DNA of 64,000 nt from Psychroserpens ponticola (GTDB lineage: Bacteria; Bacteroidota; Bacteroidia; Flavobacteriales; Flavobacteriaceae): contig NZ_CP116221.1 in NCBI RefSeq assembly GCF_023556315.2, forward strand, positions 1,809,001 to 1,873,000, given 5' to 3'. Shown here one piece after another: positions 27,321 through 64,000 of this stretch. A model generated the notes under the pieces. That model was not told the DNA's origin, made no database searches, and was given only the letters and a program-made list of their open reading frames with translations. The translations under genes were made by a program, and so were the position numbers. How positions within the stretch are numbered: position 1 is the first letter of the stretch; every line of letters begins with the position of its first letter.

Positions 27321-28496
27321 ATGAAAAATCGACCAGAAATACATTTAATTAAATTCTATTATAAAGAGAAGCATCAAATAGGGATTAAATTTAAATACAA
27401 CAAAATACTAATAGATGTTGCCAAATCTATTCCATCTTCAAAATGGAATCAAATAGTTATGTTATGGCACCTTCCCTATACTACAAAAAACCTTGATTTG
27501 ATTCGGTATTATTTTAAAGATTATGCATTCATAAATGAGAATGCATTAGGATTACAGGCAAAGCAAAAGAAAAGTATGCCTAAAACTGAAAGAAAATTAA
27601 ACGAAGAGCAAAAAATAGTACTTAATAATTATTATAAATACTTAAGAGGGAAACGCTATAGTGATAGTACAGTAAAAAATTACACATTTCAAATTGCTGA
27701 TTTTATTGATTACCATAGAGAGAAACAAATTCAAGATTTATGCAATAGAGATGTCGAATTATTTATAGAAGATGTTTTTATAAAGCGAAAACTAAGTATT
27801 AGTGTTCAACGACAATTTATAAGTGCATTAAAATTATTTATTGTTTTTGATAAATCGACACAAATTGAAGACATAGAATTAGTACGACCAAAGCGAGATA
27901 AAGTATTACCAACAGTTCTATCACAAAATGAGGTAATTGAATTAATAGCGAAAACAAAAAATTTAAAGCATAGAACCATTATTGCATTATTATATTCGGC
28001 AGGATTAAGAATAAGCGAACTCATAAATTTAAAAATTGATGATATAAATATTAACCGAAAGCAGTTTATTATTAAAAAAGCCAAAGGCAGAAAAGACAGA
28101 TATGCACCTTTAGCTGAGCATTTATTACCACTATTAAGAAATTATATGATCACCTATGAACCAGAAACCTATCTTATAGAAGGAAAGCCAGGTTTTAAAT
28201 ATAGTTCAAGTAGTGTGAGTAAATTTTTGCATAAAGCAGCTTCACAATGCCGTTTAAAAGTTCGTGTTACACCACATACATTACGACATAGTTATGCAAC
28301 ACACTTATTAGAAAATGGTGTAGGGCTGCGACATATTCAATCGTTATTAGGCCATGCAAAACCAGAAACTACAATGATTTACACACATGTAGCTAGGAAA
28401 GACTTATTAGAGATTCGAAGCCCACTAGATCTTGCTGTAGAACACTATAAAAAAACGGATAATCTGGAACAAAAGTTCAAGATATCGGAAAAATAG
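27321..28496 (+). CDS. Tyrosine recombinase, IntI/Xer-like, of the integron-like array
   Basis: 391 aa. An N-terminal arm-like extension (about 1-85, with WNQIVMLWHLPYTT) precedes the SAM-like core-binding domain (about 95-180) and the catalytic domain. Catalytic residues: Arg230 (AGLRISEL), Lys255 (KAKGRKDR), His319/Arg322 (TPHTLRHS), His345 (LLGHAKPETT), Tyr354 (MIYTHV). The start of the catalytic domain (VLPTVLS-x2-EV) and the end (RSPLDL) resemble integron integrases, but the approximately 30-residue IntI insertion with ALxRKYP and W..WVFP is absent between Lys255 and the HxxR box. It is co-directional with the cassettes and its stop is 37 bp from the attI-like point. It is the likely enzyme that inserts and excises the cassettes. 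Confidence 0.9.
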   Translation: MKNRPEIHLIKFYYKEKHQIGIKFKYNKILIDVAKSIPSSKWNQIVMLWHLPYTTKNLDLIRYYFKDYAFINENALGLQAKQKKSMPKTERKLNEEQKIVLNNYYKYLRGKRYSDSTVKNYTFQIADFIDYHREKQIQDLCNRDVELFIEDVFIKRKLSISVQRQFISALKLFIVFDKSTQIEDIELVRPKRDKVLPTVLSQNEVIELIAKTKNLKHRTIIALLYSAGLRISELINLKIDDININRKQFIIKKAKGRKDRYAPLAEHLLPLLRNYMITYEPETYLIEGKPGFKYSSSSVSKFLHKAASQCRLKVRVTPHTLRHSYATHLLENGVGLRHIQSLLGHAKPETTMIYTHVARKDLLEIRSPLDLAVEHYKKTDNLEQKFKISEK

Positions 28497-28499
28497 CAA

Positions 28500-28539
28500 C
28501 TGATATTGTGTATATTTATCGATATATAACGAGTTGTAG
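28500..28539 (+). other. attI-like site, start of the cassette array
   Basis: Short A/T-rich spacer after the integrase stop containing TATATAAC-GA-GTTGTAG. GTT at 28533-28535 is the only GTT core that is not preceded by a full CATACAC...CGTT attC arm, as expected for a primary insertion site. The bases after G (TTGTAGGTAAT) belong to cassette 1, because they match its end (ACCTACAAC). Boundaries of any integrase-binding arms are unknown. Confidence 0.6.
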
Positions 28540-28558
28540 GTAATATAAAAACAAGAAA

Positions 28559-29266
28559 ATGAGAAAAATTGTTCTTCTGATTATACTAATTAGCCAACTC
28601 TCTTTTGGTCAAGATGGAACTCAAGGAACGTTTTCAATGGCTGTTGTTAAACCAAATAAAGCTGAAATAGAAAAATCTTTAGAAAAGTTTACTGACTCAA
28701 TAGAATTAACATATCGTAATCAATATTACACTTATCGTAATCGTCTTATCGAAATGCAGGATGAAAAACCTGAAGATTACCCAGAAGATATGAGAGCAGA
28801 TTTTAAAGAAAGTAAAAAACAAGCTGCTCTTGAACTGAAACAATTGGATAGTCTAGAGAACCAAATCTTGAATTATAAATATTACGAACTGATTTCATAC
28901 TACACGACAACAATTCTGAATATGTCTTTTAATGAATATGAACCATATTCCAGTATTTTTGAGGTTCAAAATCATGAAATTGAAAACGATGAATTATCAG
29001 AATATGCGGAAATTAAAAAAGTAGATTTTATTTTACTGTTTGAGAACATAAAAGTCACAAATATAGAAGGACTTTACAAAATGACTTCTCAACTAAAATT
29101 GTACTCGAAAAAAGAAAACAAAATTGTTCTCGAAAAGAATGTTTTCGGAAATACAAATAGCTATGGAGGAATGTGGACTTGTGGAAATTCATTGTCGTGT
29201 TTATTTATTACGTCAATTAAAAACTCAATGGAATTCTTAATCCCAGAAATCAGGCAAAGAATATAA
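28559..29266 (+). CDS. Cassette 1: secreted hypothetical protein
   Basis: 235 aa, signal peptide MRKIVLLIILISQLSFG. The body has a charged coiled-coil-like region (YRNRLIEMQDEKPED, ALELKQLDSLENQILN) and a C-terminal part with GMWTCGNSLSCLFI containing two Cys that may form a disulfide. No family recognised. First cassette gene, hence closest to the integrase. Confidence 0.75.
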   Translation: MRKIVLLIILISQLSFGQDGTQGTFSMAVVKPNKAEIEKSLEKFTDSIELTYRNQYYTYRNRLIEMQDEKPEDYPEDMRADFKESKKQAALELKQLDSLENQILNYKYYELISYYTTTILNMSFNEYEPYSSIFEVQNHEIENDELSEYAEIKKVDFILLFENIKVTNIEGLYKMTSQLKLYSKKENKIVLEKNVFGNTNSYGGMWTCGNSLSCLFITSIKNSMEFLIPEIRQRI

Positions 29267-29274
29267 AATACTAC

Positions 29275-29408
29275 CTACAACAACGTGTATAACCAATTGC
29301 TTGGTTATCGCATACTCGGAAATTCCTAGCGGAATTTCCTATTGGTTCGTTTTCTTTTGCTAACTTAGTCATAGCCAACGCAACTAGCCATACACAAAAC
29401 CGTTAGGC
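29275..29408 (+). repeat. attC-like site 1 (type A)
   Basis: Left tag CTACAAC (cassette 1), right tag GTTAGGC (cassette 2); the two do not pair with each other but each pairs with the other end of its own cassette. Apical stem GGAAATTCC/GGAATTTCC. Confidence 0.85.
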
Positions 29409-29427
29409 ACAAGCGGATCTCACTCAA

Positions 29428-29856
29428 ATGGAAAAACAGTTTACTTCGATATACAGGATTCGAGAATATGGTTTAAGTTGGGGAATCAGAATTCAAATTT
29501 CAGCAAGAATTGAAAAAGATAGTGGAGGAATAAAAATATCTCACAATCTGTTTTATGAAAACAAAGTTGAAAACATAAAACTAACGACTCAAGAAATTAA
29601 TCTTTTGTTGGCTGGTATAAAATGGGTAAACTCATTGATTATAAATAAAATTAAGTTTCCGATAAAAATTGTTCTTGAAAAAATTGAATTAAATGAATGT
29701 GACTATCAAAGCGAAGGATTATTTTATGCAATTGCATTTTGGGCATCTGAGACTTTTAAATTTAGTTTGCCACAATATGAATTTAAATATGATGAAGAAA
29801 ATGGTAAATATATTTTCCCAAATTTAACTGATGATATAGAAAAAGCCAATGCCTAA
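29428..29856 (+). CDS. Cassette 2: hypothetical protein (identical copy in cassette 7)
   Basis: 142 aa, cytoplasmic by sequence (no signal). Contains YRIREYGLSWGIRIQISARIEKDSGG and WVNSLIINKIKFPIKIVLEKIEL; the ending YAIAFWASETFKFSLP suggests an alpha/beta fold. No family recognised. The stop TAA overlaps the AAC of the attC-like site. The same protein is encoded at 33919-34347. Confidence 0.75.
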   Translation: MEKQFTSIYRIREYGLSWGIRIQISARIEKDSGGIKISHNLFYENKVENIKLTTQEINLLLAGIKWVNSLIINKIKFPIKIVLEKIELNECDYQSEGLFYAIAFWASETFKFSLPQYEFKYDEENGKYIFPNLTDDIEKANA

Positions 29857-29984
29857 CAACGTGTATAACCAATTGCTTGGTTTGTGTGTACTCGGAAATT
29901 CCTATCGGAATTTCCTACTGGTTCGGTTTCTTTTGCTAACTTAGTCCTAGCCAACGCAACAAGCCATACACAAAACCGTTAGGC
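29851..29984 (+). repeat. attC-like site 2 (type A)
   Basis: GCCTAAC left tag and GTTAGGC right tag, here perfectly matching the RYYYAAC and GTTRRRY consensus of integron attC sites. 134 bp; apical stem GGAAATTCC/GGAATTTCC. Confidence 0.9.
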
Positions 29985-30004
29985 ACAAGAAAAAAATACT
30001 ACTA

Positions 30005-31172: not shown

Positions 31173-31305
31173 GCCTAACAACGTGTATAACCAATTGCTT
31201 GGTCATAGCCTACTTGGAAATTCCTAACGGAATTTCCTCTGGTTCGTTTTCTTTTGTTAACTTAGTTCTCGCCAACGCAACAAGCCATACACAAACACGT
31301 TGCAA
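31173..31305 (+). repeat. attC-like site 3 (type A)
   Basis: GCCTAAC / GTTGCAA; apical stem GGAAATTCC/GGAATTTCC with a four-base loop. Confidence 0.85.
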
Positions 31306-31575: not shown

Positions 31576-31708
31576 ATGCAACAACGTGTATAATTAATTA
31601 CTGCGGAATTTCCCAAACGGAAATTCACAATAATTAATTAACTTAGCTGCTAATCGGAAAATGACTTACGCCCTTTTCCGTAACTAATCATACACAAAAC
31701 CGTTGTAG
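31576..31708 (+). repeat. attC-like site 4 (type B)
   Basis: Same outer frame as type A but a different middle: TAATTAATTACTGCGGAATTTCC ... GGAAATTC split by a short loop, and a second stem CGGAAAA/TTTTCCG. All type B sites here end a non-coding cassette. Confidence 0.85.
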
Positions 31709-31733: not shown

Positions 31734-32951
31734 ATGAAAAAAAACACAAATCATAGACACACAAAAGAAACTCTCTACTACTCTATTTCTAGAATGTTGG
31801 AAAGAGCATCTTATTATGGTATGCGTATACTAATTGTTCTATATATGACCGGAGAAGTCCTGAAAATGGATAGAACTGACGCTATAATAACTTATGGTTG
31901 GGTTGCAGGCTCATTAGTGTTTTCTCAAATAATTGGTGCTTTACTGGGAGACTTGCTCATTGGAAACAGAAAATCAATTATTATTGGTGGTATTATTCAA
32001 GCTATTGGTGCCTTCTGCTTAATTATTCCAACAAATATTGGTCTATATGTTGGATTATCGCTAGTGGTATTAGGTAGCGGTTTATTTACACCTAATATTA
32101 TCTCAAACTTTGGGAAATCATATTTAAGCAAAACAAAATTATTAGATTCAGCCTTTACATTATTCTATTTAGCAATAAATTTAGGATCATTTCTTGGAAT
32201 CTTAATAGTTGGTCATTTTGGAGAAGAATATGGTTATAATATTGGGTTTTTAGTATCTGGAATAATGATGCTATTTTCATTAATTCCTATGTGGATTTTA
32301 AAAGAACAAAAGCCTACTAAAAATCAAGAAAACAAATACTCTATAAGCAAAAGAGTTTTAAATATTTTCATTGCTTTTCTAGTAGTTGGATTATTTTGGG
32401 GTGCTTACGAAATCTCAAATATTCGTTTTTTCGAATTACAATTGCAATTCATCGAAATTTCATCGTTTGATATACCAAATAGTATCTGGTACTCAATGAA
32501 CTCTATCTATATTTTACCAATTAGCTTAATCGCAGTTATTATATGGACATATTTTTACAATAGTCAATTTTTTAAATTAATGCTTGGTTCTATTTTTGGA
32601 TTAATCTCATTTGGTATTTTATTCCTAATTCCTGAAGTTGCAACTGAACAAAATACAATTATCTATTTCGTGTCATTACTATTTCTAAGTATTTCGGAAA
32701 TCCATATTGCGCCAATAATTCATTCAATACTAACTAAGTATTCTAACCCAAAATATCTAGCAATACTAATAAGTCTAGCATTTATTCCAACAAAATTAAT
32801 TTCATTGATATTTAGTTTATTCAATGATAGATTTTATGACAGACCTAGTTTAGGTTTAATATTTGGAACAATTTTAATGGCAATTATTAGTGTTGGGCTT
32901 ATTACCTATGTGTTATGGAATAAAAAAAACTACCTACAACAACGTGTATAG
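31734..32951 (+). CDS. Cassette 5: POT-like MFS transporter
   Basis: 405 aa, about twelve transmembrane helices. The N-terminal ERASYYGMRILIVLYM is a form of the ExxERFxYYG motif of proton-dependent oligopeptide transporters, although the first Glu is replaced (SRMLERA). Typical members are 450-500 aa, so this is short. The stop TAG lies inside the attC-like site (read CGT GTA TAG), so the last residues QQRV are encoded by it. Likely imports di- or tripeptides; substrate not provable. Confidence 0.82.
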   Translation: MKKNTNHRHTKETLYYSISRMLERASYYGMRILIVLYMTGEVLKMDRTDAIITYGWVAGSLVFSQIIGALLGDLLIGNRKSIIIGGIIQAIGAFCLIIPTNIGLYVGLSLVVLGSGLFTPNIISNFGKSYLSKTKLLDSAFTLFYLAINLGSFLGILIVGHFGEEYGYNIGFLVSGIMMLFSLIPMWILKEQKPTKNQENKYSISKRVLNIFIAFLVVGLFWGAYEISNIRFFELQLQFIEISSFDIPNSIWYSMNSIYILPISLIAVIIWTYFYNSQFFKLMLGSIFGLISFGILFLIPEVATEQNTIIYFVSLLFLSISEIHIAPIIHSILTKYSNPKYLAILISLAFIPTKLISLIFSLFNDRFYDRPSLGLIFGTILMAIISVGLITYVLWNKKNYLQQRV

Positions 32952-33065
32952 TCAATTACTCATTCTGTGTGTACTCGGAAAATCCTACGGATTTTCCTCT
33001 GGTTCGTTTTCTTTTACTAACTTAGTTCTAGCCAACGCAACTAACCATACACGAACACGTTGGCA
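32934..33065 (+). repeat. attC-like site 5 (type A)
   Basis: CTACAAC / GTTGGCA; apical stem GGAAAATCC/GGATTTTCC, changed from site 1 on both strands so pairing is kept. Supplies the stop codon of the transporter. Confidence 0.85.
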
Positions 33066-33095: not shown

Positions 33096-33788
33096 ATGAA
33101 AATTCGAAAATTAAAATTATTTACAAATAAACTTGAGTTAGAAAAAACATTCTACTCTCAAACTTTAGGTTTTGAAATAATAGAAAACAACTCGAATTAT
33201 TTTACAATAAATATAGGATGGAGCGAATTAACATTTGAAAAATCTAAAAAAGAATATATATATCATTATTGTTTTTTAATTCCATCTAATAAGCTGGAAC
33301 AAGCAATGAAATGGATGGAAAAGCGTGTTCCAATTATTGATATTGAGAATGGAAGGAAAACTCAAAGATTTGAAAGTTGGAATGCAGACTCATTTTACTT
33401 TTATGATGCTAGTGGAAATATTGCCGAATTTATAGTAAGACATAAATTGAATAACGGAATTAGTTCCGATTTCAATATTTCTGATGTATTATGTGTAAAT
33501 GAAATAGGAATGCCAACAAATAACGTAGAAAGGGTAAATAATGAACTTCTAAAAAAATTTGGTACAGAGTTTTGGAAAGGTGATTTAAAACGATTTGGTA
33601 CGAATGGTTCTCAAGAAGGCTTATTTTTATTACCAAACTACGAAATAAAAAAAATCTGGTTTCCAACTTCATCAATAAAAATTAAACCAGAACCTTTTGA
33701 AATTCTACTTGAGAATAATGGAAAAAAATATTACATGGAATATAAAAACGAAGAAATAATAACTACAGCCAACAACGTGTATAATTAA
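33096..33788 (+). CDS. Cassette 6: VOC/glyoxalase-fold protein
   Basis: 230 aa. The N-terminal 120 residues (LKLFTNKLELEKTFYSQTLGF, SWNADSFYFYDASGNIAEF) have the beta-alpha-beta-beta-beta layout and the conserved D-x-x-GNxxEF end of vicinal oxygen chelate proteins; the second half looks like a more diverged repeat. Ligand and metal are unknown. The final residues and TAA stop (NNVYN*) come from the attC-like site. Confidence 0.75.
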   Translation: MKIRKLKLFTNKLELEKTFYSQTLGFEIIENNSNYFTINIGWSELTFEKSKKEYIYHYCFLIPSNKLEQAMKWMEKRVPIIDIENGRKTQRFESWNADSFYFYDASGNIAEFIVRHKLNNGISSDFNISDVLCVNEIGMPTNNVERVNNELLKKFGTEFWKGDLKRFGTNGSQEGLFLLPNYEIKKIWFPTSSIKIKPEPFEILLENNGKKYYMEYKNEEIITTANNVYN

Positions 33789-33899
33789 TTGCTTGGTCTG
33801 TGTTTACTCGGAAAATCCTACGGATTTTCCTCTGGTTCGGTTTCTTTTACTAACTTAGTTCTTGCCAACGCAACTTAACCATACACGAACACGTTAGGC
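33767..33899 (+). repeat. attC-like site 6 (type A)
   Basis: AGCCAAC / GTTAGGC; apical stem GGAAAATCC/GGATTTTCC. Confidence 0.85.
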
Positions 33900-33918
33900 A
33901 CAAGCGGATCTCACTCAA

Positions 33919-34347
33919 ATGGAAAAACAGTTTACTTCGATATACAGGATTCGAGAATATGGTTTAAGTTGGGGAATCAGAATTCAAATTTCAGCAAGAA
34001 TTGAAAAAGATAGTGGAGGAATAAAAATATCTCACAATCTGTTTTATGAAAACAAAGTTGAAAACATAAAACTAACGACTCAAGAAATTAATCTTTTGTT
34101 GGCTGGTATAAAATGGGTAAACTCATTGATTATAAATAAAATTAAGTTTCCGATAAAAATTGTTCTTGAAAAAATTGAATTAAATGAATGTGACTATCAA
34201 AGCGAAGGATTATTTTATGCAATTGCATTTTGGGCATCAGAGACTTTCAAATTTAGTTTGCCACAATATGAATTTAAATATGATGAAGAAAATGGTAAAT
34301 ATATTTTCCCAAATTTAACTGATGATATAGAAAAAGCCAATGCCTAA
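33919..34347 (+). CDS. Cassette 7: hypothetical protein, second copy
   Basis: 142 aa, the same protein as at 29428-29856. I see two silent base differences (TCT/TCA for Ser and TTT/TTC for Phe) and a few more in the attC-like site. Both cassettes are 576 bp, so the whole cassette was copied, not just the gene. Function unknown. Confidence 0.78.
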   Translation: MEKQFTSIYRIREYGLSWGIRIQISARIEKDSGGIKISHNLFYENKVENIKLTTQEINLLLAGIKWVNSLIINKIKFPIKIVLEKIELNECDYQSEGLFYAIAFWASETFKFSLPQYEFKYDEENGKYIFPNLTDDIEKANA

Positions 34348-34475
34348 CAACGTGTATAACCAATTGCTTGGTTTGTGTGCACTCGGAAATTCCTATCGGA
34401 ATTTCCTACTGGTTCGGTTTCTTTTGCTAACTTAGTCCTTGCCAACGCAACTAGCCATACACAAAACCGTTGTGC
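34342..34475 (+). repeat. attC-like site 7 (type A)
   Basis: GCCTAAC / GTTGTGC; close match to site 2 with several point changes. Confidence 0.85.
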
Positions 34476-34624
34476 ATAATGCGGAAAAACGATAAAAATT
34501 GAAAAATTGAACTATAAAAGCCAGCCGCATAAATAGCACATTTGTTTTTTTCCAACGCAAAATCCAACGCTAAAAAAAACAAAAGAGCTATTTTAGCCAA
34601 CGCTCGACCAAACCAACAAAATGA

Positions 34625-36994
34625 ATGAATAAAAAAGACTTATCTGAATCTGACATAAAGGCGAAATTTATCACACCTGCTATTTTAAAATCAGGTTGGG
34701 ATGAGCAAACACAATTAGGACGTGAGATTTTCTTCACAGATGGTCGAATCTATGTGAAAGGAAAGCTGACTGCAAGAGGAAAACGAAAATTTGCGGACTA
34801 TATACTTTTCTACAAACCGAATGTTCCGATTGCAATAATTGAGGCAAAAGACAACAAACACAGCGTAAAAAGTGGAATTCAACAAGCTCTTGGCTACGCC
34901 AACACCTTGGATATTCCTTGTGTGTTTAGTAGTAATGGAGACGGATTTTACTTTCACGACAAAACAGCAACAGACGGAGAAATTGAAAAAGAACTGACTT
35001 TAGACGAATTTCCAAGTCCTGAAATTCTTTGGCAGAAATACAAAAAATACAAAGGAATTGAAACCGAAGAAGTTGAAGAAATTGCAAAACAAGATTATTT
35101 TCAAGATGGTTCTGGTCGTAGTCCAAGATACTACCAACAAATTGCTGTAAACAGAACAATCGAAGCAGTTGCAAAAGGATTAGACCGAATTCTTTTAGTT
35201 ATGGCAACTGGAACAGGAAAAACTTATACAGCTTTTCAAATCATTTACAGACTTTGGAAAAGTGGAGCAAAAAAAAGAATCTTATTTTTAGCGGACAGAA
35301 CTGCATTAATTGACCAAACAGCTCGTGGAGATTTTAGACATTTTAAAGATGCTCTAACAATCATAAAAAAGAAACAAATTGACACAGCTTACAATATTTA
35401 TTTAGCATTATATCAAGGTTTATCAGATAGTCAAGGAGCAGATGCATACAAACAATTTAGTCCAGACTTTTTTGATTTAATCATAATTGACGAGTGCCAC
35501 AGAGGAAGTGCTAAAGAAGATAGCAAATGGCGTGAGATTTTAGCTTATTTCAACAAAGCAACTCACATTGGTTTAACAGCAACACCAAAAGAAACCGAAG
35601 AAGTTTCAAATATTGATTATTTCGGTGAGCCTCTTTACACCTATTCTTTAAAACAAGGAATTGATGATGGTTTTCTGGCACCTTATAAAGTTGTAAAAGT
35701 CACTTTAGATATTGATGCGGAAGGTTGGCGACCAACACAAGGTTTTGTAGATAAAAGCGGAAATCCAGTTGAAGATAGAATTTACAACAGAACGGATTTT
35801 GACAAAAATATAGTTGTTGACGAACGCAGAAAATTAGTTGCAAAAAAGATAACCGAATTCTTAAAAGGTTATGACAGATTTGCAAAATCAATCGTTTTCT
35901 GTATTGATATTGAGCACGCAGAAGGAATGCGTTCCGCATTGGCTAACGCCAATGCCGATTTATTCGCTCAAAACAATAAGTACGTAATGCAAATTACAGG
36001 CGATAACGAAGAAGGAAAACGTGAGTTGGATAGTTTTATCAATCCAAGTGAACCTTATCCTGTTATTGCTACAACTTCAAAATTAATGACTACAGGAGTT
36101 GATGCTCAAACTTGTAAACTCATTGTTTTAGATAGTAATATTGGTTCAATGACCGAGTTTAAACAAATTATTGGTCGTGGAACGAGAATAAATGAGGAAT
36201 ATGGTAAAACATATTTTACCATTATGGACTTTAGAAATGTAACCAACTTATTTGCTGACCCTGATTTTGATGGTGACCCAGTAATGATAAAACAAGTTGG
36301 TGAAGATGATGATTTATCTGGTGCAGAAGACGAAATGACAGATGAAGTAATCACAGACATTTTGGATGGCGAAGAAGTTGATTTTCCAGACATTGAAGGT
36401 GGTGGAGAAATTGAAGAAGATACAAGGCGTGAAAAAATTCGAGTGGATGGTGTTCAAGTAAAAATTGTAAATGAACGTGTGCAATATTTAGGTAATGATG
36501 GTAAAATTATAACGGAAAGCCTAAAGGACTACACTAAAAATAGCGTTACCAAACAATATCAAAGTTTAGAGAAATTTCTAAATTCTTGGAATAATTCAGA
36601 AAAGAAAGAAGTTATTATTAAAGAATTAGAAGAACAAGGAATTTTCTTTGAAGCTTTAAAAGATGAAGTTGGAAAAGAATTTGACGCTTTCGATTTAATC
36701 TGTCACGTAGCTTTTGAAGCAAAGCCCTTAACAAGAAAAGAAAGAGCAAACAACGTAAAAAAGAGAAACTATTTTACCAAATATGGAGACAAAGCCCAAA
36801 CGGTTTTAAATAGTTTACTCGATAAATATGCAGAAGATGGTTTATTAACTATTGAAAGTACAGAAGTATTAAAACTTGACCCTTTAAATAAATTAGGAAC
36901 ACCAATTGAATTAATCAAAGCTTTTGGTAGTAAAAAAGTTTATTTACAAGCATTGAAGGAATTAGAAACACAATTATACAATACAACAGCATAA
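34625..36994 (+). CDS. hsdR: Cassette 8: type I restriction enzyme R subunit
   Basis: 789 aa, starting at MNKKDLSESD; an ATG four bases earlier stops after three codons. N-terminal nuclease domain with Asp58 and Glu73-x-Lys75 (FADYI...IIEAKD), then superfamily 2 helicase motifs: Walker A GTGKT at 196-200, DECH at 289-292, TATPKE, and QIIGRGTR. The motor pulls DNA toward the complex and cuts it when unmodified. The hsdM-S gene follows with no gap (stop then ATG). Confidence 0.95.
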   Translation: MNKKDLSESDIKAKFITPAILKSGWDEQTQLGREIFFTDGRIYVKGKLTARGKRKFADYILFYKPNVPIAIIEAKDNKHSVKSGIQQALGYANTLDIPCVFSSNGDGFYFHDKTATDGEIEKELTLDEFPSPEILWQKYKKYKGIETEEVEEIAKQDYFQDGSGRSPRYYQQIAVNRTIEAVAKGLDRILLVMATGTGKTYTAFQIIYRLWKSGAKKRILFLADRTALIDQTARGDFRHFKDALTIIKKKQIDTAYNIYLALYQGLSDSQGADAYKQFSPDFFDLIIIDECHRGSAKEDSKWREILAYFNKATHIGLTATPKETEEVSNIDYFGEPLYTYSLKQGIDDGFLAPYKVVKVTLDIDAEGWRPTQGFVDKSGNPVEDRIYNRTDFDKNIVVDERRKLVAKKITEFLKGYDRFAKSIVFCIDIEHAEGMRSALANANADLFAQNNKYVMQITGDNEEGKRELDSFINPSEPYPVIATTSKLMTTGVDAQTCKLIVLDSNIGSMTEFKQIIGRGTRINEEYGKTYFTIMDFRNVTNLFADPDFDGDPVMIKQVGEDDDLSGAEDEMTDEVITDILDGEEVDFPDIEGGGEIEEDTRREKIRVDGVQVKIVNERVQYLGNDGKIITESLKDYTKNSVTKQYQSLEKFLNSWNNSEKKEVIIKELEEQGIFFEALKDEVGKEFDAFDLICHVAFEAKPLTRKERANNVKKRNYFTKYGDKAQTVLNSLLDKYAEDGLLTIESTEVLKLDPLNKLGTPIELIKAFGSKKVYLQALKELETQLYNTTA

Positions 36995-39259
36995 ATGGCA
37001 AACGTAGCAGCAGTAGTAAGCAGCATAAGAAATATAATGCGTCAAGACAGAGGGATTTCTGGTGATGCCCAAAGATTAGAGCAATTAGGTTGGATGCTCT
37101 TTTTAAAAATTATTGACGACAAAGACCAAGAATTAGAAATTTTAAAAGACGATTATCAGTCTGTAATTCCAGAGCAATTTCAATGGAGAACTTGGGCAAG
37201 TGACCCAGAAGGAATTACAGGAGATGATTTATTGGAATTTATAGACAGTAACGCCCAAAACAACCGAGGGTTATTTGCCACTTTACGTAATCTCACAAGT
37301 ATTAATAATCCAAAACGTGCTGCCATAGCGAAAGAAGTTTTTGATGGTTCAAATAACTATATGAAGAGTGGTTACGAAATGCGAAAAGTCATAAATAAAC
37401 TCAATGAAATTGACTTTAACAATTCTAACGATAAGCACATTTTCGGCAATATTTACGAAAGTATTTTACAAGAATTGCGTGATGCAGGAAATAAAGGTGA
37501 ATACTACACACCAAGAGCAGTAACACAGTTTATGACACAAATGACCAATCCAAGATTGGGTGAAAAAGTACTTGACCCTGCAGCTGGTACAGGAGGTTTT
37601 TTAAGCGCAGCAATAGACCACGTTAGAGAAAATTATGTAAATACGGTAGAAGACGAGCATCTTCTGCAAAAAAGTATTACAGGATGGGAATTAAAACCTG
37701 TAGCATACGTTTTAGGACTAACCAATTTAATTTTACACGAAATGGATGTTCCTGACTATCATTATATTGATAGTCTAAAAAAGGAATATAATAGTATTGG
37801 TAAAAAAGACCAAGTCGATGTAATATTAGCTAATCCACCATTTGGTGCAAGTATAGCTGAAGGTGTAGAATCAAACTTTCCGAGTTCTTTTCGTTGTCGT
37901 GAATCAGCAGATTTATTTGTTGTATTAATGTTAAAATTATTAAACCATAATGGTAGAGCTGCAATTGTTTTACCTGATGGATGTATTAAAGGCGAAGGAG
38001 TAAAAGCTCGAATACATAAAAAACTATTAACAGAATGTAATCTGCATACAATTATTAGAATGCCGACTAGTACATTTTTTCCAGCAGCAGTTAGAACAAA
38101 TCTGCTTTTTTTTGAAAAAGGAAAGAAAACAAATGATATTTGGTACTATGAGCATAAATTACCCAAAGGTCAAAAAAGCTACTCTAAAACTAAACCTATT
38201 GAATTTGATGAATTTCAACCAATTATAAAATGGTGGCAAAACAGAGAAGAATCTTCAGTTTCTTGGAAAGTAAATGTTTCAGAATTAAAAGATTGGGATT
38301 TAGATATTAAAAATCCATATCAAGAGAAAATAAAACATATTCCTGCTACTGAATTATATGAAAAATATAACAACAAACTGACTTCAGTTCAACAAACATT
38401 CTCTACAATATCAAAAAATATATTATTTAACAGAATTCCAGTTCTAGACAAACTTCTTCAAAATAATAATTCTTTGTTCCTAAACATAGATTTTATTAAT
38501 AAATTCAAGAAAGTTATTATTCTAGAAGGGCTAAAAGGAAATTTAAGTAAAGATTTTAGCGATAAACAAGAATTCAAGTCTGGAGAGTTACTCTCTGATA
38601 AAATGTTGGAAGAAAAAGCAATCATTTTTGAAGAAGAAAGACTTAAACCTGAAAAATCAGTAATTCCAATTGAAAAACAAGCAATACCGTATAAAATACC
38701 AAACCATTGGTGTTGGAATATACTTGATAATGTTTCAATATTTTATAATGGTAAGGCTCACGAAAAATTAGTTGATTCAAGTGGTCAATATATTTTAGTA
38801 AACTCAAAATTTGTCTCAACAAATGGTTCAGTTAAAAAACACAGTACTGAAATATTAGTTCCTCTTAAAAAAAATGATATTGCCATAGTAATGAGTGATG
38901 TTCCTAACGGTAGAGCTTTAAGTAGATGCTATCTTGTAGAGGAAAACAACTTATATACACTAAACCAAAGAATTGGATGTTTAAAATCATTATGTGGTAT
39001 TCATCCTGAATACTTAAAAATGGTTTTAGATAGAAATAAATATTACTTGAATTTTAATGATGGAAAAAAACAAACAAATCTGAAAAAAAGTCAAATTTTA
39101 TCTTGCCCAATTCCAATTCCACCTCTAGAAGAACAAAAATATATAATAGAACAGGTAAATAACTTATTGAAAAAATGTGAAGAATTAGAATTAGAAATCG
39201 AAAGTCAAAATAGTCTTTCTGAAAATCTTATTGATTCAATTTTAAATGAATCTTTTTAA
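36995..39259 (+). CDS. hsdM: Cassette 8: type I HsdM-HsdS fusion
   Basis: 754 aa. N-terminal HsdM helical part, then the N6-adenine methyltransferase domain: DPAAGTGGF at 194-202 (S-adenosylmethionine) and NPPFG at 280-284 (catalytic). From about residue 560 a single HsdS-type target-recognition domain follows (IPNHWCWNILDNVSIF, LEEQKYIIEQVNNLLKKCEELELEIE with the coiled coil). A normal HsdS has two such domains, so two copies of this fusion would be needed to read a two-part target. It methylates the host and directs HsdR. Confidence 0.92.
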   Translation: MANVAAVVSSIRNIMRQDRGISGDAQRLEQLGWMLFLKIIDDKDQELEILKDDYQSVIPEQFQWRTWASDPEGITGDDLLEFIDSNAQNNRGLFATLRNLTSINNPKRAAIAKEVFDGSNNYMKSGYEMRKVINKLNEIDFNNSNDKHIFGNIYESILQELRDAGNKGEYYTPRAVTQFMTQMTNPRLGEKVLDPAAGTGGFLSAAIDHVRENYVNTVEDEHLLQKSITGWELKPVAYVLGLTNLILHEMDVPDYHYIDSLKKEYNSIGKKDQVDVILANPPFGASIAEGVESNFPSSFRCRESADLFVVLMLKLLNHNGRAAIVLPDGCIKGEGVKARIHKKLLTECNLHTIIRMPTSTFFPAAVRTNLLFFEKGKKTNDIWYYEHKLPKGQKSYSKTKPIEFDEFQPIIKWWQNREESSVSWKVNVSELKDWDLDIKNPYQEKIKHIPATELYEKYNNKLTSVQQTFSTISKNILFNRIPVLDKLLQNNNSLFLNIDFINKFKKVIILEGLKGNLSKDFSDKQEFKSGELLSDKMLEEKAIIFEEERLKPEKSVIPIEKQAIPYKIPNHWCWNILDNVSIFYNGKAHEKLVDSSGQYILVNSKFVSTNGSVKKHSTEILVPLKKNDIAIVMSDVPNGRALSRCYLVEENNLYTLNQRIGCLKSLCGIHPEYLKMVLDRNKYYLNFNDGKKQTNLKKSQILSCPIPIPPLEEQKYIIEQVNNLLKKCEELELEIESQNSLSENLIDSILNESF

Positions 39260-39403
39260 TGCCAACGCTAAAAGCCATACACATTTGCAATTCGCTACAG
39301 CCAACGCTACGCCAAAAATTGCAAAAGAGTATGTCTTGCCAATGCTCAAATCAGAACTAAATAACAAACATCGGAAAACCAAACTGAACGTGAAAAGCAC
39401 TAT
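39260..39403 (+). other. Spacer with a decayed attC fragment after hsdM-S
   Basis: Directly after the stop there is TGCCAACGCTAAAAGCCATACACA, resembling the inner CCAACGCAACTAGCCATACACA of type A sites but lacking the CGTT core. It may be a remnant of a lost site inside this long cassette. Confidence 0.4.
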
Positions 39404-39600
39404 GCACAACAACGTGTATAAAACATAGCTATTATAGGCTTTCCGAGAGGTTTTTGTATATTTACATAGTACGCCAAATTTTTTATTTGGTTATATTTAG
39501 AAAAGAAAATTAAACATAAAAATAAAAAATTCGGCTCGTGCAAAATCTGAAAAATTAGTGTTTATTTATACGCTACGTTTCATACACAAGACCGTTGGGC
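39404..39600 (+). repeat. attC-like site 8 (type C, 197 bp)
   Basis: GCACAAC / GTTGGGC. Longer middle with GCTTTCCGAGAGG, an apical CCAAAT-TTTT-ATTTGG stem and ATTCGGCTC; only sites 8 and 18 are of this type. Confidence 0.8.
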
Positions 39601-41646: not shown

Positions 41647-41777
41647 GCCCAACAACGTGTATAATTAATGGCTAGTCCTCGCCTACTTACGAAAATCCTC
41701 GCGGATTTTCTATTTGGTTTTTATTTGCTAAATTAGGTGCTTAAACACGCCACTAATCATACACAAAACCGTTAACA
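41647..41777 (+). repeat. attC-like site 9 (type D)
   Basis: GCCCAAC / GTTAACA. Middle differs: GAAAATCC-TCGC-GGATTTTC stem and TTAAACACGCCACTAATCATACACA. Confidence 0.85.
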
Positions 41778-49875: not shown

Positions 49876-50007
49876 GGCTAACACCGTGTATAATTCATTG
49901 CTAGTTATAGCCCACTTACGAAAGTCCTCGCGGACTTTCTATCTGTGATTTATTTGCTAACTTTAGTGCTTATACACGCAACGAAATCATACACAAAACC
50001 GTTGGCA
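49876..50007 (+). repeat. attC-like site 19 (type D)
   Basis: GGCTAAC / GTTGGCA; stem GAAAGTCC/GGACTTTC, a compensatory A-T to G-C change relative to site 9. Confidence 0.85.
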
Positions 50008-50555: not shown

Positions 50556-50574
50556 AAAACGATTTGCCAACACC

Positions 50575-50696
50575 GTGTATATTTAATTGCTAGGTCTAGC
50601 CTACTTACGAATATTCCTGCGGAATATTCTATTCGTTTTTTATTTACTAAATTAGTTGCTCAAACACGCAACTAAGCATACACAAACACGTTACCA
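50575..50696 (+). repeat. attC-like site 20 (type D, 122 bp)
   Basis: TGCCAAC / GTTACCA; stem GAATATTCC/GGAATATTC, another paired variant. Confidence 0.82.
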
Positions 50697-50708: not shown

Positions 50709-51353
50709 ATGCCTACACCAATTCATAGTAAAATAATAAACAAGATTGCTCGCGGATTTTTTAAAGAGTATGGAATTGTTCGCAAAGGTCAATCAAGAAT
50801 TTGGTTAGATGACCACTATTGGTTCACTACAATTATCGAGTTCCAACCTTTTAGTAATAGACAAGGAACTTGCTTAAATGTTGCTGTAAATTTTCATTGG
50901 TACGAAAAAGATTATCTCTCTTTTGATATTGGAGATAGAGAATCTGAATTTATAGATTTTGAGACTGAAGAACAATTTGAAATCAAAATGAATTCTCTTG
51001 TGGAATTAGCTTTAAAACGAACGTTAGGGTTTCGAGAAAAATTAGCGAATTTAGAAACTGGAACAAATACAATTCTGAATCACAAATTTGCAAGTGACAG
51101 TCTTTGGGGAAATTATCACCGAGCAATTATTTGCGGATTAAAAAATGATCAAAAAAATGCTGAACAATATTTTGATTTGATATTAAAGACAGATCATGAT
51201 GTAGCTTGGGCAAATAAATTAAAAGACAGAGTTTCTAATTTAAAAACTGAACTGAATAACATTACGGATTTTCAAAAAAGAGTCGATTTGATTATTGAGA
51301 AAACAAGGAATGAAAAGAAACTAAAAGCAATTGAAATAAAAAACGTGTGGTAA
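50709..51353 (+). CDS. Cassette 21: hypothetical cytoplasmic protein
   Basis: 214 aa, no signal. Starts PTPIHSKIINKIARGFFKEYGIVRKGQSRIWLDDHYWF, similar in shape to DUF4304-like proteins often seen beside polymorphic toxins, with a helical second half. Family not certain. Stop TAA overlaps the AAC of the attC-like site. Confidence 0.68.
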   Translation: MPTPIHSKIINKIARGFFKEYGIVRKGQSRIWLDDHYWFTTIIEFQPFSNRQGTCLNVAVNFHWYEKDYLSFDIGDRESEFIDFETEEQFEIKMNSLVELALKRTLGFREKLANLETGTNTILNHKFASDSLWGNYHRAIICGLKNDQKNAEQYFDLILKTDHDVAWANKLKDRVSNLKTELNNITDFQKRVDLIIEKTRNEKKLKAIEIKNVW

Positions 51354-51481
51354 CAACGTGTATAACCAATTGCTTGGTTTGTGTGTACTCGGAAATTCCT
51401 AGCGGAATTTCCTACTGATTCGGTTTCTTTTGTTAACTTAGTTCCTGCCAACGCAACAAGCCATACACAAAACCGTTGTAC
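51348..51481 (+). repeat. attC-like site 21 (type A)
   Basis: TGGTAAC / GTTGTAC; stem GGAAATTCC/GGAATTTCC. Confidence 0.85.
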
Positions 51482-52152: not shown

Positions 52153-52286
52153 GTACAACAACGTGTATAACCAATTGCTCAGTTTGTGTGTACTCGGAAA
52201 ATCCTATCGGATTTTCCTAATGGTTCGATTTATTTTGTTAACTTAGTTCTTGCCAACGCAACAAGCCATACACAAACACGTTAGGT
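52153..52286 (+). repeat. attC-like site 22 (type A)
   Basis: GTACAAC / GTTAGGT; stem GGAAAATCC/GGATTTTCC. Confidence 0.85.
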
Positions 52287-53278: not shown

Positions 53279-53414
53279 ACCTAACAACGTGTATAACCAA
53301 TTGCTTGGTTTGTGTGTACTCGGAAAATCCTAGCGGATTTTCCTATTGGTTCGGTTCCTTTTTACTAACTTAGTCCTAGCCAGCGCAACTGAGCCATACA
53401 CAAACACGTTAACA
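53279..53414 (+). repeat. attC-like site 23 (type A)
   Basis: ACCTAAC / GTTAACA; stem GGAAAATCC/GGATTTTCC. Confidence 0.85.
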
Positions 53415-53878
53415 ACAATAGTGCAAAAATTCAACAGTACTACTCTATTTGAACTATTGTTATTAATACAAAAATCTCAAATTTCTCATTTAAGATTTTC
53501 GCTTTATCATTTTTTGGAGAACTAAACGCTTTTTGGTTTGGTTTTGTTTATTAAGTTATAGCTAGAAAACTCTCAAGAAAATTGATCACTTAAATGGCAA
53601 ACAATTTATTTTTAGAATAATATGTTTTATCATTTAAAATTGTTTTTTCATAAGTCAGCCGAATTATCGATAGCGTTCTGTATCGTTCTAAAATCCAAAA
53701 AAGGTGTTCGTTAGTATTCCTGTGGTGCAACCTAAATGCTATTATGGACTTTTCTCTTTTTCCAAATCAACGGTTTCTTGGGAGTATCAGCTAATGTTAG
53801 TTATAGCATTCTCTTTCGGTTGCTGTGAAGTATATAGCTAGTTCTGTGATTCACCAATGACTTGTGCTGCACTACAGT
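53415..53878 (+). repeat. Cassette 24: non-coding 596-bp cassette, copy 4
   Basis: Same unit as at 41778, the most diverged of the four (e.g. GATCACTTAAATGGC). No gene seen. Confidence 0.75.
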
Positions 53879-54010
53879 TGCTAACAACGTGTATAATTAA
53901 TTACTGCGGAATTTCCAATCGGAAATTCACAATAATTAATTAACTTAGCTGCTAATCGGAAAATGACTTACGTCCTTTTCCGTAACTAATCATACACAAA
54001 ATCGTTGGCA
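53879..54010 (+). repeat. attC-like site 24 (type B)
   Basis: TGCTAAC / GTTGGCA; same middle as site 4, with AATCGTT instead of AACCGTT at the right core. Confidence 0.85.
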
Positions 54011-54911: not shown

Positions 54912-55045
54912 TGCCAACAACGTGTATAACCAATTGCTCAGTCTGTGTGTACTCGGAAAATCCTAGCGGATTTTCCTATTGGTTCGGTTTATTTTGCTAA
55001 CTTAGTTCCTGCCAACGCAACAAGCCATACACAAACACGTTGTGC
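54912..55045 (+). repeat. attC-like site 25 (type A)
   Basis: TGCCAAC / GTTGTGC; stem GGAAAATCC/GGATTTTCC. Confidence 0.85.
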
Positions 55046-55943: not shown

Positions 55944-56076
55944 GCACAACAACGTGTATATTTAATTGCTAGGTCTAGCCTACTTACGAATATTCCTGCG
56001 GAATATTCTATCTGTGTTTTATTTACTAAATTAGTTGCTTAAACAACGCAACTAATCATACACAAAACCGTTGTAG
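55944..56076 (+). repeat. attC-like site 26 (type D)
   Basis: GCACAAC / GTTGTAG; stem GAATATTCC/GGAATATTC as in site 20. Confidence 0.82.
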
Positions 56077-57384: not shown

Positions 57385-57517
57385 CTACAACAACGTGTAT
57401 AATTCATTGCTAGTACTCACCTACTTGGAAATTCCTTCGGAATTTCCTCTGGTTCGTTTTTGTTTACTAATTTAGTTGCTGAAACACGCAACGAAATCAT
57501 ACACAAACACGTTACCT
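57385..57517 (+). repeat. attC-like site 27 (type D)
   Basis: CTACAAC / GTTACCT; stem GGAAATTCC/GGAATTTCC. The cassette end CGTGCTACAAC pairs perfectly with its start GTTGTAGCAC. Confidence 0.85.
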
Positions 57518-58763: not shown

Positions 58764-58897
58764 AGGTAACAACGTGTATAACCAATTGCTTGGTTTGTGT
58801 GTACTCGGAAATTCCTATCGGAATTTCCTATTGGTTAGTTCATTTTTGTTAACTTAGTTCTCGCCAACGCAACTAGCCATACACAAACACGTTGCCA
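58764..58897 (+). repeat. attC-like site 28 (type A)
   Basis: AGGTAAC / GTTGCCA; stem GGAAATTCC/GGAATTTCC. Confidence 0.85.
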
Positions 58898-59736: not shown

Positions 59737-59867
59737 TGGCAACACCGTGTATAATTAATGGCTAGTTCTCGCCTACTTACGAAAATCCTCGCGGATTTTC
59801 TATTCGGTTTTTATTTGTTAAATTAGGTGCTTAAACACGCCACTAATCATACACAAACACGTTGCCA
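59737..59867 (+). repeat. attC-like site 29 (type D)
   Basis: TGGCAAC / GTTGCCA; here both sides pair because cassettes 29 and 30 share the same tag. Stem GAAAATCC/GGATTTTC. Confidence 0.85.
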
Positions 59868-60679: not shown

Positions 60680-60686
60680 AAACTAC

Positions 60687-60821
60687 TGGCAACACCGTGT
60701 ATAATTAATTGCTTTGGCAAGTGCTTATTTGGAAAATTCCTTCGGAATTTTCTCGCGTTCGTTTTTGTTTACTAAATTAGTTGCTCAAACACGCAACTAA
60801 GCATACACAAACACGTTGTAT
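60687..60821 (+). repeat. attC-like site 30 (type D)
   Basis: TGGCAAC / GTTGTAT; stem GGAAAATTCC/GGAATTTTC, yet another paired variant. Confidence 0.82.
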
Positions 60822-61410: not shown

Positions 61411-61417
61411 AAACTAC

Positions 61418-61561
61418 ATACAACAACGTGTATAACCAATTGCTTGGTTTGTGTGTACTCGGAAATTCCTATCGGAATTTCCTACTGGTTCGGTTTCTTT
61501 TGTTAACTTAGTTCTCGCCAACGCAACAAGCCATACACAAACACGTTGGCATTCATTGTGA
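61418..61561 (+). repeat. attC-like site 31 (type A)
   Basis: ATACAAC / GTTGGCA; stem GGAAATTCC/GGAATTTCC. Confidence 0.85.
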
Positions 61562-61608
61562 ATAATAATTTTAACAATATTTCAAATTACAAAAATATCT
61601 CATTAAAA

Positions 61609-63258
61609 TTATTCTTTCATAACTCTGTAAACAACTGAATTGCCATCAATTTCAACAGAAATTAAATACATTCCTGAATTTAATTCTGACATATTGATTT
61701 CTTCCACCAGTGAATTAGGCTTGGAACTAGAAATTTGTTGACCTAAAAGATTATATACTCTTACAAAATCCATTTTCTTATTAGATTTTAAATTCAAAAT
61801 GTTGCTAGTTGGATTTGGGTATAAAGTAAAATCTTTAAATGTAAAATCTTCAATTGTTAATGTAGCGTTTTGAACTAAAATATCAAATAATCCTGTTGCT
61901 CTATCTGTTTCAGAATCTGACCAAACTTGTATATAATAATCTGTATTTGTCGTTACAGGAATATCCAATAATGCATTTTCAGCACAAGCATTAATCACTT
62001 GGGTTAAATTTGAACAATCACCTTCCCAAAGCTGTAAATTATAACTAGATTCTGCAATAATATCCAAATTGTTAAAAGATTCAGAATTGACCTTAAACCA
62101 TACATCAAGTCTATTAACATCATTACAACTTGGTATTTGAATCGAAGTTGTAGAAAGGTCATCATATGCTTGTAATTGTTGTCCAATCGTAAGCGAGAAT
62201 GCATTATCACACTCATCGTTAAAAGGTACAAATCCACAAGCAAAAGCCACTTCTCCAACACTACTACAACTTTCAGCATTGTTTTCAATTATGAAAAGAG
62301 GATATAGGTCTATAAAATCAGGCTCTTGTAATCGATTAATGGAAGCACAAAAAAGATTATTTTCACATATAGACAAATTCGGATTATTGGTGATTTTTAG
62401 GAAAGGACCAAATGTTGTTGAAAAGTTATTAAATGCAGAAATATCATCAAGTAAGGGGTTATTGTCTATAACTAATTGAGAAATACCACCTCCTCCAATA
62501 TCTCCTAAGCTTTGTAATAAATCATTATTTGAAATTACAAAATCTTGGTCAGAAACGCCAAAATTGTCACTTAATCCTGTTAAATTAATTAAAGAATCGT
62601 TATTTATTATTTGCAAAAAGTCATAGACTCCATCGAATGCTTGCAACCCATTTAAACTACCCAAAACAGGATTGTTAGATATAATAATGAAAAAAGCATA
62701 CAACCCAATATCAATATTGGCATTTGATATATTTGTTAGAGCACTTATATCTGTCAACGAAATATTATCATCGATTTTAAGTCCCGTAAAACCTCCTCCA
62801 CCTATTCCATTGGGATCAAAATCTGTAACAAAATTTAATCCTTCTAAATTTACTAGTGAAGAACAGCCTTGAATATGCAAATGACTCAATGAAGTTAGAC
62901 CTGTAAATACAGTAAGGTTAGTTAGTAAAGGATTGTCTTCTAATTGCAAAGCAGTATTATTTGAGATTAAAGATTGTAAATTATGTAATCCATCTAATTC
63001 TGTTAATAATGGATTGTCCAAAATCCTCAAATTTGGAATATAAGTAATAGTTGATAACGCTGTTAAATCTGTAATATCAGCACCACTTATAGTTAAACGA
63101 TCAGTTAACATAGTACAATCTGGATAATTAGTTGAAAAAGCATCTACTTCTGCTTGAGAACTTAAAGTAATGTTTGAAGTTGGACATTGGCTAAAATTAA
63201 GGATAGGTAATAAGCCTAGTATTAAGCATAATACCAAAAAATGTAACTTTGTTTTCAT
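61609..63258 (-). CDS. Cassette 32: T9SS-secreted leucine-rich protein, inverted in its cassette
   Basis: 549 aa on the minus strand, opposite to all other cassette genes. Signal peptide ending LNFSQ, LRR-like units (LTALSTITYIPNLRILDNPLLTELDGLHNL style), a Cys-rich link, and a C-terminal sorting tail (FTLYPNPTSNILNLKSN ... GMYLISVEI). It resembles the chromosomal protein at 22424-23521. Cassette tags (GTTGGCATTC / GAAATGCCAAC) pair, so it is a genuine cassette. Confidence 0.85.
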   Translation of the reverse strand: MKTKLHFLVLCLILGLLPILNFSQCPTSNITLSSQAEVDAFSTNYPDCTMLTDRLTISGADITDLTALSTITYIPNLRILDNPLLTELDGLHNLQSLISNNTALQLEDNPLLTNLTVFTGLTSLSHLHIQGCSSLVNLEGLNFVTDFDPNGIGGGGFTGLKIDDNISLTDISALTNISNANIDIGLYAFFIIISNNPVLGSLNGLQAFDGVYDFLQIINNDSLINLTGLSDNFGVSDQDFVISNNDLLQSLGDIGGGGISQLVIDNNPLLDDISAFNNFSTTFGPFLKITNNPNLSICENNLFCASINRLQEPDFIDLYPLFIIENNAESCSSVGEVAFACGFVPFNDECDNAFSLTIGQQLQAYDDLSTTSIQIPSCNDVNRLDVWFKVNSESFNNLDIIAESSYNLQLWEGDCSNLTQVINACAENALLDIPVTTNTDYYIQVWSDSETDRATGLFDILVQNATLTIEDFTFKDFTLYPNPTSNILNLKSNKKMDFVRVYNLLGQQISSSKPNSLVEEINMSELNSGMYLISVEIDGNSVVYRVMKE

Positions 63259-63349
63259 AATTTGAGTTTAGATGTAAATGACTTAAGACCAAATATATCA
63301 ATTTTCTTATTGACTTCTGAAAAACATATTAAATCTAAAAACAACGAAA

Positions 63350-63482
63350 TGCCAACAACGTGTATAACCAATTGCTCAGTTTGTGTGTACTCGGAAAATC
63401 CTGCAGATTTTCCTACTGGTTCGTTTTCTTTTGTTAACTTAGTTCTCGCCAACGCAACTAGCCATACACAAACACGTTGTGC
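63350..63482 (+). repeat. attC-like site 32 (type A)
   Basis: TGCCAAC / GTTGTGC; one arm of the apical stem has a change (GGAAAATCCTGC-AGATTTTCC) that breaks one pair. Confidence 0.85.
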
Positions 63483-63599
63483 GTAATTCCCTCAAATTGC
63501 GGAAAGAAAATAATTACTTCATATTAACGTTTAGTAAATGGTTAAAAAACTGAAAATCAAAAAATATTAATAACTGATTTTCATAACGTTGTAGAAAAG

Positions 63600-64000
63600 A
63601 TGAATAGAAAACTATTATTAATCATTTTAATAATTCCAAATATATTTTATTGTCAAAGCGCATTTGAAGTTTCTGATTTTAAAAATGTACATTCAAAGGT
63701 GATTAGTATATTAAATGAAAAACAAATATTCTCTTCAGACGTTAACATTGAAGAAATTTATATAACAGATTTAATTGATGTCGAGAATAAAGTTGATGAT
63801 AACCTCACAAATGGTATATACTGGATTTATTATCATTATCACTGGAATTCTTATTTACTGATTAAAAACAAAAATAAATTTATCTTTTATAATGATCCTC
63901 TAAAGAATATTGATTCCTTATTTAAAAAAGTAATAGAGATTGATAAAACAAAAAAAGAATCTAAAGCATATTTAAAAAAAATTTATAATCATCTTTTTGG
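63600..64000 (+). CDS. Cassette 33: second copy of the cassette 12 gene, cut by the window edge
   Basis: The 525 bases from the cassette start at 63476 to the window end appear identical to 43300-43824, including the long leader. The visible protein starts MNRKLLLIILIIPNIF and includes GIYWIYYHYHW. Shows that whole cassettes have been copied at a distance of 20 kb. The 3' end is outside the window. Confidence 0.75.
   Translation, partial: MNRKLLLIILIIPNIFYCQSAFEVSDFKNVHSKVISILNEKQIFSSDVNIEEIYITDLIDVENKVDDNLTNGIYWIYYHYHWNSYLLIKNKNKFIFYNDPLKNIDSLFKKVIEIDKTKKESKAYLKKIYNHLF

Follow-up and report, generated by a model that had tools for sequence, protein, structure and literature searches.

Can a cassette array of the integron kind be built and served by a recombinase that does not belong to the IntI family? 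This question is raised by a stretch of 64,000 nucleotides (the window; bases 1809001-1873000) from the closed, single-contig 4.03 Mb genome of Psychroserpens ponticola, a member of the Flavobacteriaceae in the phylum Bacteroidota. As the original prediction had noticed, the gene of a tyrosine recombinase, here called P0001 (27321-28496), is followed in the window by discrete units ending in sites that resemble the attC sites of integrons. Judged from its sequence, the locus is probably a chromosomal cassette-capture platform that would work like an integron, and its predicted driver is a tyrosine recombinase outside the IntI family. It appears integron-like on all decidable sequence tests save the two that define IntI membership, since P0001 has no IntI-specific insert and stands outside the IntI clade. 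Positions are given on the scale of the window.

Architecture of the array

The array was followed through 303 kb of the chromosome. It has 273 sites in the same orientation over about 250 kb, which from the attI crossover to the last site amounts to 6.2% of the genome. The window holds 32 complete sites (29279-63478), where at least 33 units had been predicted; the array itself runs past the window and is far larger, its last site ending at 279055, or at about 2088055 on the chromosome. The cassette array with attC-like ends is therefore confirmed at a greater size than foreseen. Left arms of the form AAC...GTGTAT occur 274 times on the forward strand and three times on the reverse strand of the 303 kb; 273 of the forward ones form the array, with a median spacing of 772. 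The 271 cassette units have a median length of 771 bp and range from 399 to 5125 bp, and site 272 lacks its right arm. Shufflons and invertible arrays have sites in opposite orientations, an arrangement ruled out here by the ratio of forward to reverse sites.

The V. cholerae superintegron has 179 cassettes in 126 kb (PMC11551772). Since a literature search for the largest chromosomal integrons by cassette number found no paper, the claim of size is limited to an array larger than that superintegron.

The sites match RYYYAAC...GTTRRRY and have inner complementary boxes. Their cores, from AAC to GTT, are 122-128 nt long, apart from two of 187 and 189 nt, and 240 of the cores are distinct among the 272 sites with both arms; some sites have altered right arms. 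Site ends of the predicted RYYYAAC/GTTRRRY type are present, but it is the inner AAC...GTGTAT, not the consensus alone, that exceeds chance. RYYYAAC by itself gives 133 matches against 148 expected by shuffling and was discarded as evidence. The dif sites of XerC and XerD are 28 bp long, and the length of the cores does not fit a Xer/dif module.

Cassette boundaries

The two boxes of one site in an integron array belong to different cassettes. Because an integron cassette leaves as a circle, its end box must match its own start box. In the array, own-box complementarity is 3.64 of four variable bases, and 185 of 269 units are perfect (the count covers 269 of the 273 sites; three right arms were recovered afterwards and one is missing). 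At eight other lags only 12-21 of 266-269 are perfect, and 200 shuffles give a mean of 15.5 and a maximum of 25. The match frequencies at the six bases beyond GTT are 0.99, 0.86, 0.88, 0.91, 0.99 and 0.94; they are 0.52 at the seventh base and 0.00 at the eighth, while the ninth and tenth bases, which match at 0.90 and 0.96, are partly fixed (0.70 and 0.44 at lag 1). The same relation holds in other species: of 119 units at 14 loci, 13 of which belong to other genera, 105 are perfect. Lags -1 and +1 give 5 of 105 and 9 of 120, and 500 shuffles reach 15 at most. This comparison covers 122 hits that were transcribed manually; the 14 loci were picked among the 56 with hits for having many. Own-end matching of this kind is, at the level of sequence, the signature of cassettes passing through a circle.

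The borders of duplicated cassettes fall at the same place. Among 96 pairs of at least 97% identity, which are not independent because many can stem from a single family of 30 copies, the first 60 nt agree at 0.98, whereas past the end the value falls to 0.56 over 7 nt and to 0.36 over the 53 nt that follow; identity of repeated cassettes stops at the G^TT border. Sites lying inside genes would have spoken against the original prediction, and the own-box match together with identity that ends at unit borders indicates instead that the sites bound units.

The attI-like site

An attI-like motif lies directly behind the stop codon of P0001, with the G of the crossover at 28533, and the array begins there. 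Relatives of P0001 number 401 in a scan of species genomes, and locus counts refer to the best 80 of these. The attI motif is found within 400 nt of the recombinase gene in 69 of the 80 loci and is followed by variable cassette starts; among the other 11, a variant motif is recognizable by eye in six, and one has no sequence there. TAnnTTTG, a Bacteroidota promoter element, occurs in 25 of the 69 attI flanks and in 51 of 1651 control 43-mers. At this place it may be a recombinase-binding sequence rather than the cassette promoter Pc.

The probable folded strand

Within the sites, the 16-bp arm stem that starts at GTGTAT has on average 4.63 mismatches on the top strand and 2.30 on the bottom strand (43 distinct arm pairs). 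Stem positions 7, 8 and 12 pair on the bottom strand in 37, 36 and 38 of the 43 arm pairs, and on the top strand in 0, 17 and 8. The stems of other genomes have 162 bottom G-T pairs and three top G-T pairs (69 distinct stems, 34 loci), with all 34 loci in the same direction, though these share ancestry and are not 34 independent tests of the asymmetry. These stems were taken from the best 150 of 259 hits, of which 69 distinct ones have at least five of the first six pairs intact; positions 1-6 are thus selected and positions 7-14 unselected. By predicted energy, the bottom strand is the more stable in 248 of 272 sites. Because G-T wobbles keep the arms paired on the bottom strand where the top strand has mismatches, the folded bottom strand is the likely substrate of recombination.

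In the proposed mechanism, P0001 would excise the unit between two sites as a circle carrying one complete attC, and would integrate such circles either into attI (G^TT) or into a different attC. The attC would act as a folded bottom strand, the choice of strand being written in its G-T pairs, and new cassettes would enter next to attI.

The recombinase

Against the IntI model, P0001 reaches 198 bits, split over two segments, and so falls short of the curated cut-off of 265 bits. When it is aligned to IntI4 (2a3v), about 44 IntI residues remain unpaired. The IntI insert of about 42 residues is absent in all 30 relatives measured, in which 64-65 residues separate the K-box from HxLRH; this distance is 106 in all 22 measurable IntI proteins, six others not being measurable. 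The best-scoring solved structures for P0001, by sequence and by fold, are those of archaeal XerA. The residues R, K, H, R, H and Y, which we take to be the active-site residues of the recombinase, are invariant in 17 aligned rows.

In both trees that were built, IntI is a separate clade (100/100) that never includes P0001; P0001 and its relatives branch among Bacteroidota Xer-like recombinases (97/91). The first tree contains 27 of 30 fetched IntI loci and one PDB row, the second 14 of the 27 IntI, 20 of 21 rows of the group g1 and 28 of 30 Xer-like loci. Both are drawn with a midpoint root, which sets no order of age between the two sides. Grouping g1, g2 and IntI without the other Bacteroidota Xer-like rows is rejected in the approximately unbiased test (p-AU 0.00013), and grouping g1 and IntI without g2 is not (p-AU 0.286).

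By definition, the recombinase of an integron has an IntI-specific additional domain around patch III (PMC9668308). Without the insert, outside the clade and below the cut-off, P0001 was rejected as an IntI, and the array is consequently not an integron by the usual definition. The earlier description of the locus as an integron-like array holds for the cassettes, their attC-like ends and their content, and does not extend to an IntI recombinase.

An N-terminal domain is predicted (27321-27550; block values of the predicted local distance difference test score, pLDDT, 83-96 over residues 1-70). Its predicted fold resembles the XPB damage-recognition and HARP domains at middling strength. It is present in most, not all, members inspected, and its absence from some site-bearing members means that it is not required.

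Distribution

The relatives of P0001 come from Psychroserpens, Winogradskyella, Polaribacter, Tenacibaculum, Algibacter, Lutibacter, Olleya and others. A covariance model built from 26 window sites finds 259 sites in the 80 loci, all on the strand of the recombinase gene; as read from the hit table, 258 lie downstream and one upstream, where the sequence searched was 343 kb downstream and 734 kb upstream. By the same reading 56 of the 80 loci have sites, and only three of the 24 without (L144, L148 and L178) have more than 1 kb behind the gene. A contig end lies within 1 kb downstream in 26 of 80 loci and upstream in one, which is expected if arrays break assemblies. At least one site is present in 167 of 198 Flavobacteriaceae genomes, with at most 16 candidates scored per genome. 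The recombinase is found at E 1e-75 in 125 of the 198, in some as fragments, and 119 of these 125 have sites.

Canonical integrases have a different distribution. The IntI cut-off is exceeded in 84 of 296 sampled Bacteroidota genomes (G248 and G339 among them), with up to three matches per genome, and none of the 86 genomes with an IntI match in this sample belongs to the Flavobacteriaceae. The original prediction held that integrons are known mainly from Proteobacteria and a few other phyla, and knew of no described array of this size and architecture in the present one. Bacteroidota are in fact already listed among the integron-bearing phyla (PMC8618304, PMC9668308). No cassette array with a non-IntI recombinase was found reported in Flavobacteriaceae, in a literature search that covered no preprints and few subscription papers.

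Three recombinases from other Bacteroidota families, more distantly related to P0001 (L218, L221 and L228), are followed by repeat arrays whose site sequences differ. The end-box relation is visible by eye in L228, where the six readable units comprise four perfect matches and two that agree in three of four bases. No array was seen behind two further distant relatives (L222 and L227), and L219 has two weak site hits and no more.

A broader reading, towards which the balance tips slightly, is that Bacteroidota possess a second, independent integron. Its recombinase would be of Xer lineage, would in most cases bear a HARP/XPB-like N-terminal domain for reading folded DNA, and would have taken over cassette capture without the IntI insert. 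The system would have spread through Flavobacteriaceae and other families, with arrays that are maybe among the largest known.

Duplication and probable transfer of cassettes

Near-full-length duplicates fall into 23 families among the 271 units. One gene-less cassette, about 600 bp long, is present in 30 near-identical copies (mean column conservation 0.97), four of them in the window (41772-42366, 44136-44731, 46208-46803 and 53409-54004) and 26 more along the array; none of the other loci fetched matches it across 60% of its body. In the families of 30, 10, 6 and 5 copies, the longest open reading frame (ORF) of the member shown is 29-59 aa. Gene-less cassettes of Vibrio carry promoters (PMC11014356), and by analogy the gene-less families here may be regulatory.

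Cassettes 39 (68147-69118, outside the window) and 54 are identical over 972 bp. At 92-93% DNA identity, cassette 39 is also the first cassette behind attI in Tenacibaculum pelagium (L137), whose recombinase is 53% identical to P0001 in protein, and in genome G022 (L065); in both, similarity begins at the first base after the attI G. It is again the first behind attI in L141, at 89% from base 8 on, and has relatives inside the arrays of L116 and L213. Altogether 14 cassettes, 39 and 54 being the same, are matched over more than 60% of their body in 18 fetched loci, some of which overlap within a genome. The test set beforehand, the same cassette at a different place in related arrays, thus found its example across other genera. 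In the comparison of L137:1539-2397 with cassette 39, identity ends shortly after AACAACGTGTATAA, a few bases into attC. The same body therefore carries a different attC type in another genus, and the attC of the L137 copy looks as if exchanged relative to that of cassette 39.

Exact matches to the site pattern occur in 22 stretches of viral contigs (L229-L250), a hint that phages carry these cassettes.

Alternative explanations

The array could be an ordinary integron whose IntI has lost its insert, P0001 having descended from within the IntI family. The 198 bits scored against the IntI model, though split in two pieces, the ending SPLD of P0001 beside SPL in IntI4, the place of IntI as nearest branch to the wider clade that holds P0001 in the midpoint-rooted tree, and the unrejected grouping of g1 with IntI all lend this some colour. 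The separate IntI clade of both trees, the rejection of g1, g2 and IntI as a group apart from the other Bacteroidota Xer-like rows, and the lack of the insert in every relative measured make such a descent quite improbable. A marginally slimmer chance attaches to the housekeeping XerC and XerD working the sites, with P0001 as a bystander or regulator: two other Xer-like genes exist in the genome, and some genomes have sites although no relative of P0001 was found in them, but relatives of P0001 adjoin the attI motif and sites in dozens of species, and the cores bear no resemblance in length to dif. That the sites are used as double-stranded, Xer-like core sites rather than as folded single strands is unlikely, yet of these alternatives it deserves the most attention, as the recombinase has no IntI insert and the predicted minimum-energy folds are mixed. 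Against it stand the consistent wobble asymmetry, with arm positions 7, 8 and 12 pairing on the bottom strand and mostly not on the top, and the greater predicted stability of the bottom strand. A decayed fossil array, once mobile and now a set of static repeats, might be suspected from the few sites with altered right arms and the one without any; it is very improbable given cassette pairs of at least 97% identity at distant positions, the identical cassettes 39 and 54, and the invariant catalytic residues.

The preferred reading, a cassette platform served by P0001, has several points to contend with. Recombination itself is inferred from sequence comparison, as is the action of P0001 on these sites and on their folded bottom strand. 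The expected long arm stem is absent from the minimum-energy folds in most of 14 sites inspected, and sites are also present in 48 of the 73 Flavobacteriaceae genomes in which no such recombinase was found. Three members lack the N-terminal domain although sites are present at their loci. The IntI insert has been called essential for integron function, with MacDonald et al. as the source (PMC8138268). Finally, since the insert is not fully conserved in an integron-like subgroup of tyrosine recombinases (PMC8138268), relatives without it may already stand, unremarked, in that classification.

Comparison with known systems

Like the V. cholerae superintegron, the array combines an attI next to its recombinase gene with cassettes that run in one direction and each close with a palindromic site. 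The two also share the G^TT boundary, complementarity between the ends of one cassette, and gene-less cassettes. The array differs in its recombinase and in its larger size, and also in that end-box complementarity continues for about 6 nt past GTT while the eighth base is always mismatched, and that arm polarity is given by G-T wobble. The canonical integrons of other Bacteroidota, such as that of Salinibacter ruber M1 (PMC9024848), share the phylum and the cassette principle; unlike this array, they have a true IntI with the insert, and none of the matching genomes is in the Flavobacteriaceae. P0001 has the same catalytic core without insert as the simple tyrosine recombinases XerA, XerC and XerD, from which it is set apart by the adjoining attI motif and cassette array and, in most members, by the added N-terminal domain. 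Insert-less proteins of its kind could belong to the integron-like subgroup of PMC8138268, for whose members no cassette array or attI is described in the parts consulted. Polaribacter phage P12002L, whose host is a member of the Flavobacteriaceae, likewise carries attC-like sites, classed as CALIN, and IntI1 used one of them in an assay (PMC9892861). They are described there as cassette clusters without integrase.

Such arrays, in a large bacterial family, would escape any search that requires IntI. Should the recombinase work as proposed, the IntI insert is not the sole solution for recombining folded attC sites, and the origin of integrons and the minimal needs of single-strand recombination become directly testable. 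The arrays are also a store of genes, most of them unknown, which apparently pass from one marine genus to another.

Cassette content and features of the window

ORFs of at least 80 aa in the array direction are present in 202 of the 271 units; four units have one only against the array direction and 65 have neither. No Pfam match at E 0.001 was found for 15 of 20 window cassette proteins scanned, and the recognized products include a type I restriction system, a peptidase, a thioredoxin-like protein and a transporter. In a scan of 103 cassette proteins, drawn from the 202 units with an ORF of this size, three match ParE toxins of toxin-antitoxin pairs and two a cation-efflux family, and five defence models match one cassette protein each. 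The original prediction of sedentary-integron content, a mixture of unknowns, secreted proteins and one restriction system, is supported. The whole type I restriction system is contained in a single 5.1 kb cassette, with the HsdM and HsdS domains in one ORF.

Table 1. Positions of the recombinase gene, recombination sites and selected cassettes in the window
Feature	Position	Strand
Tyrosine recombinase P0001, 391 aa: N-terminal domain (~1-77), core-binding SAM-like domain, catalytic domain; IntI-specific insert absent	27321-28496	+
attI-like site TATATTT...ATATAACGAG^TTGTAGG; inferred crossover between 28533 and 28534	28511-28540	+
Part of cassette array in window, 32 complete units; continues to ~279055	28534-64000	+
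attC-like site 1 (AAC to GTT, as for all sites)	29279-29404	+
attC-like site 2	29855-29980	+
attC-like site 3	31177-31301	+
attC-like site 4	31580-31704	+
attC-like site 5	32938-33061	+
attC-like site 6	33771-33895	+
attC-like site 7	34346-34471	+
attC-like site 8, long, 189 nt	39408-39596	+
attC-like site 9	41651-41773	+
attC-like site 10	42245-42368	+
attC-like site 11	43179-43302	+
attC-like site 12	44012-44137	+
attC-like site 13	44610-44733	+
attC-like site 14	45088-45213	+
attC-like site 15	46085-46209	+
attC-like site 16	46682-46805	+
attC-like site 17	47477-47600	+
attC-like site 18, long, 187 nt	48255-48441	+
attC-like site 19	49880-50003	+
attC-like site 20	50569-50692	+
attC-like site 21	51352-51477	+
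attC-like site 22	52157-52282	+
attC-like site 23	53283-53410	+
attC-like site 24	53883-54006	+
attC-like site 25	54916-55041	+
attC-like site 26	55948-56072	+
attC-like site 27	57389-57513	+
attC-like site 28	58768-58893	+
attC-like site 29	59741-59863	+
attC-like site 30	60691-60817	+
attC-like site 31	61422-61547	+
attC-like site 32	63354-63478	+
Cassette 2, near-duplicate of cassette 7 (33894-34469)	29403-29978	+
Cassette 8, 5125 bp, type I restriction genes: HsdR 34625-36994, HsdM-HsdS fusion 36995-39259	34470-39594	+
Cassette 10, gene-less, one of 30 near-identical copies; cassettes 13, 16 and 24 likewise	41772-42366	+
Cassette 32, gene 61609-63258 against array direction: leucine-rich repeats and secretion tail	61546-63476	-

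On its other side, the P0001 gene is preceded by a gamma-glutamyltransferase gene.

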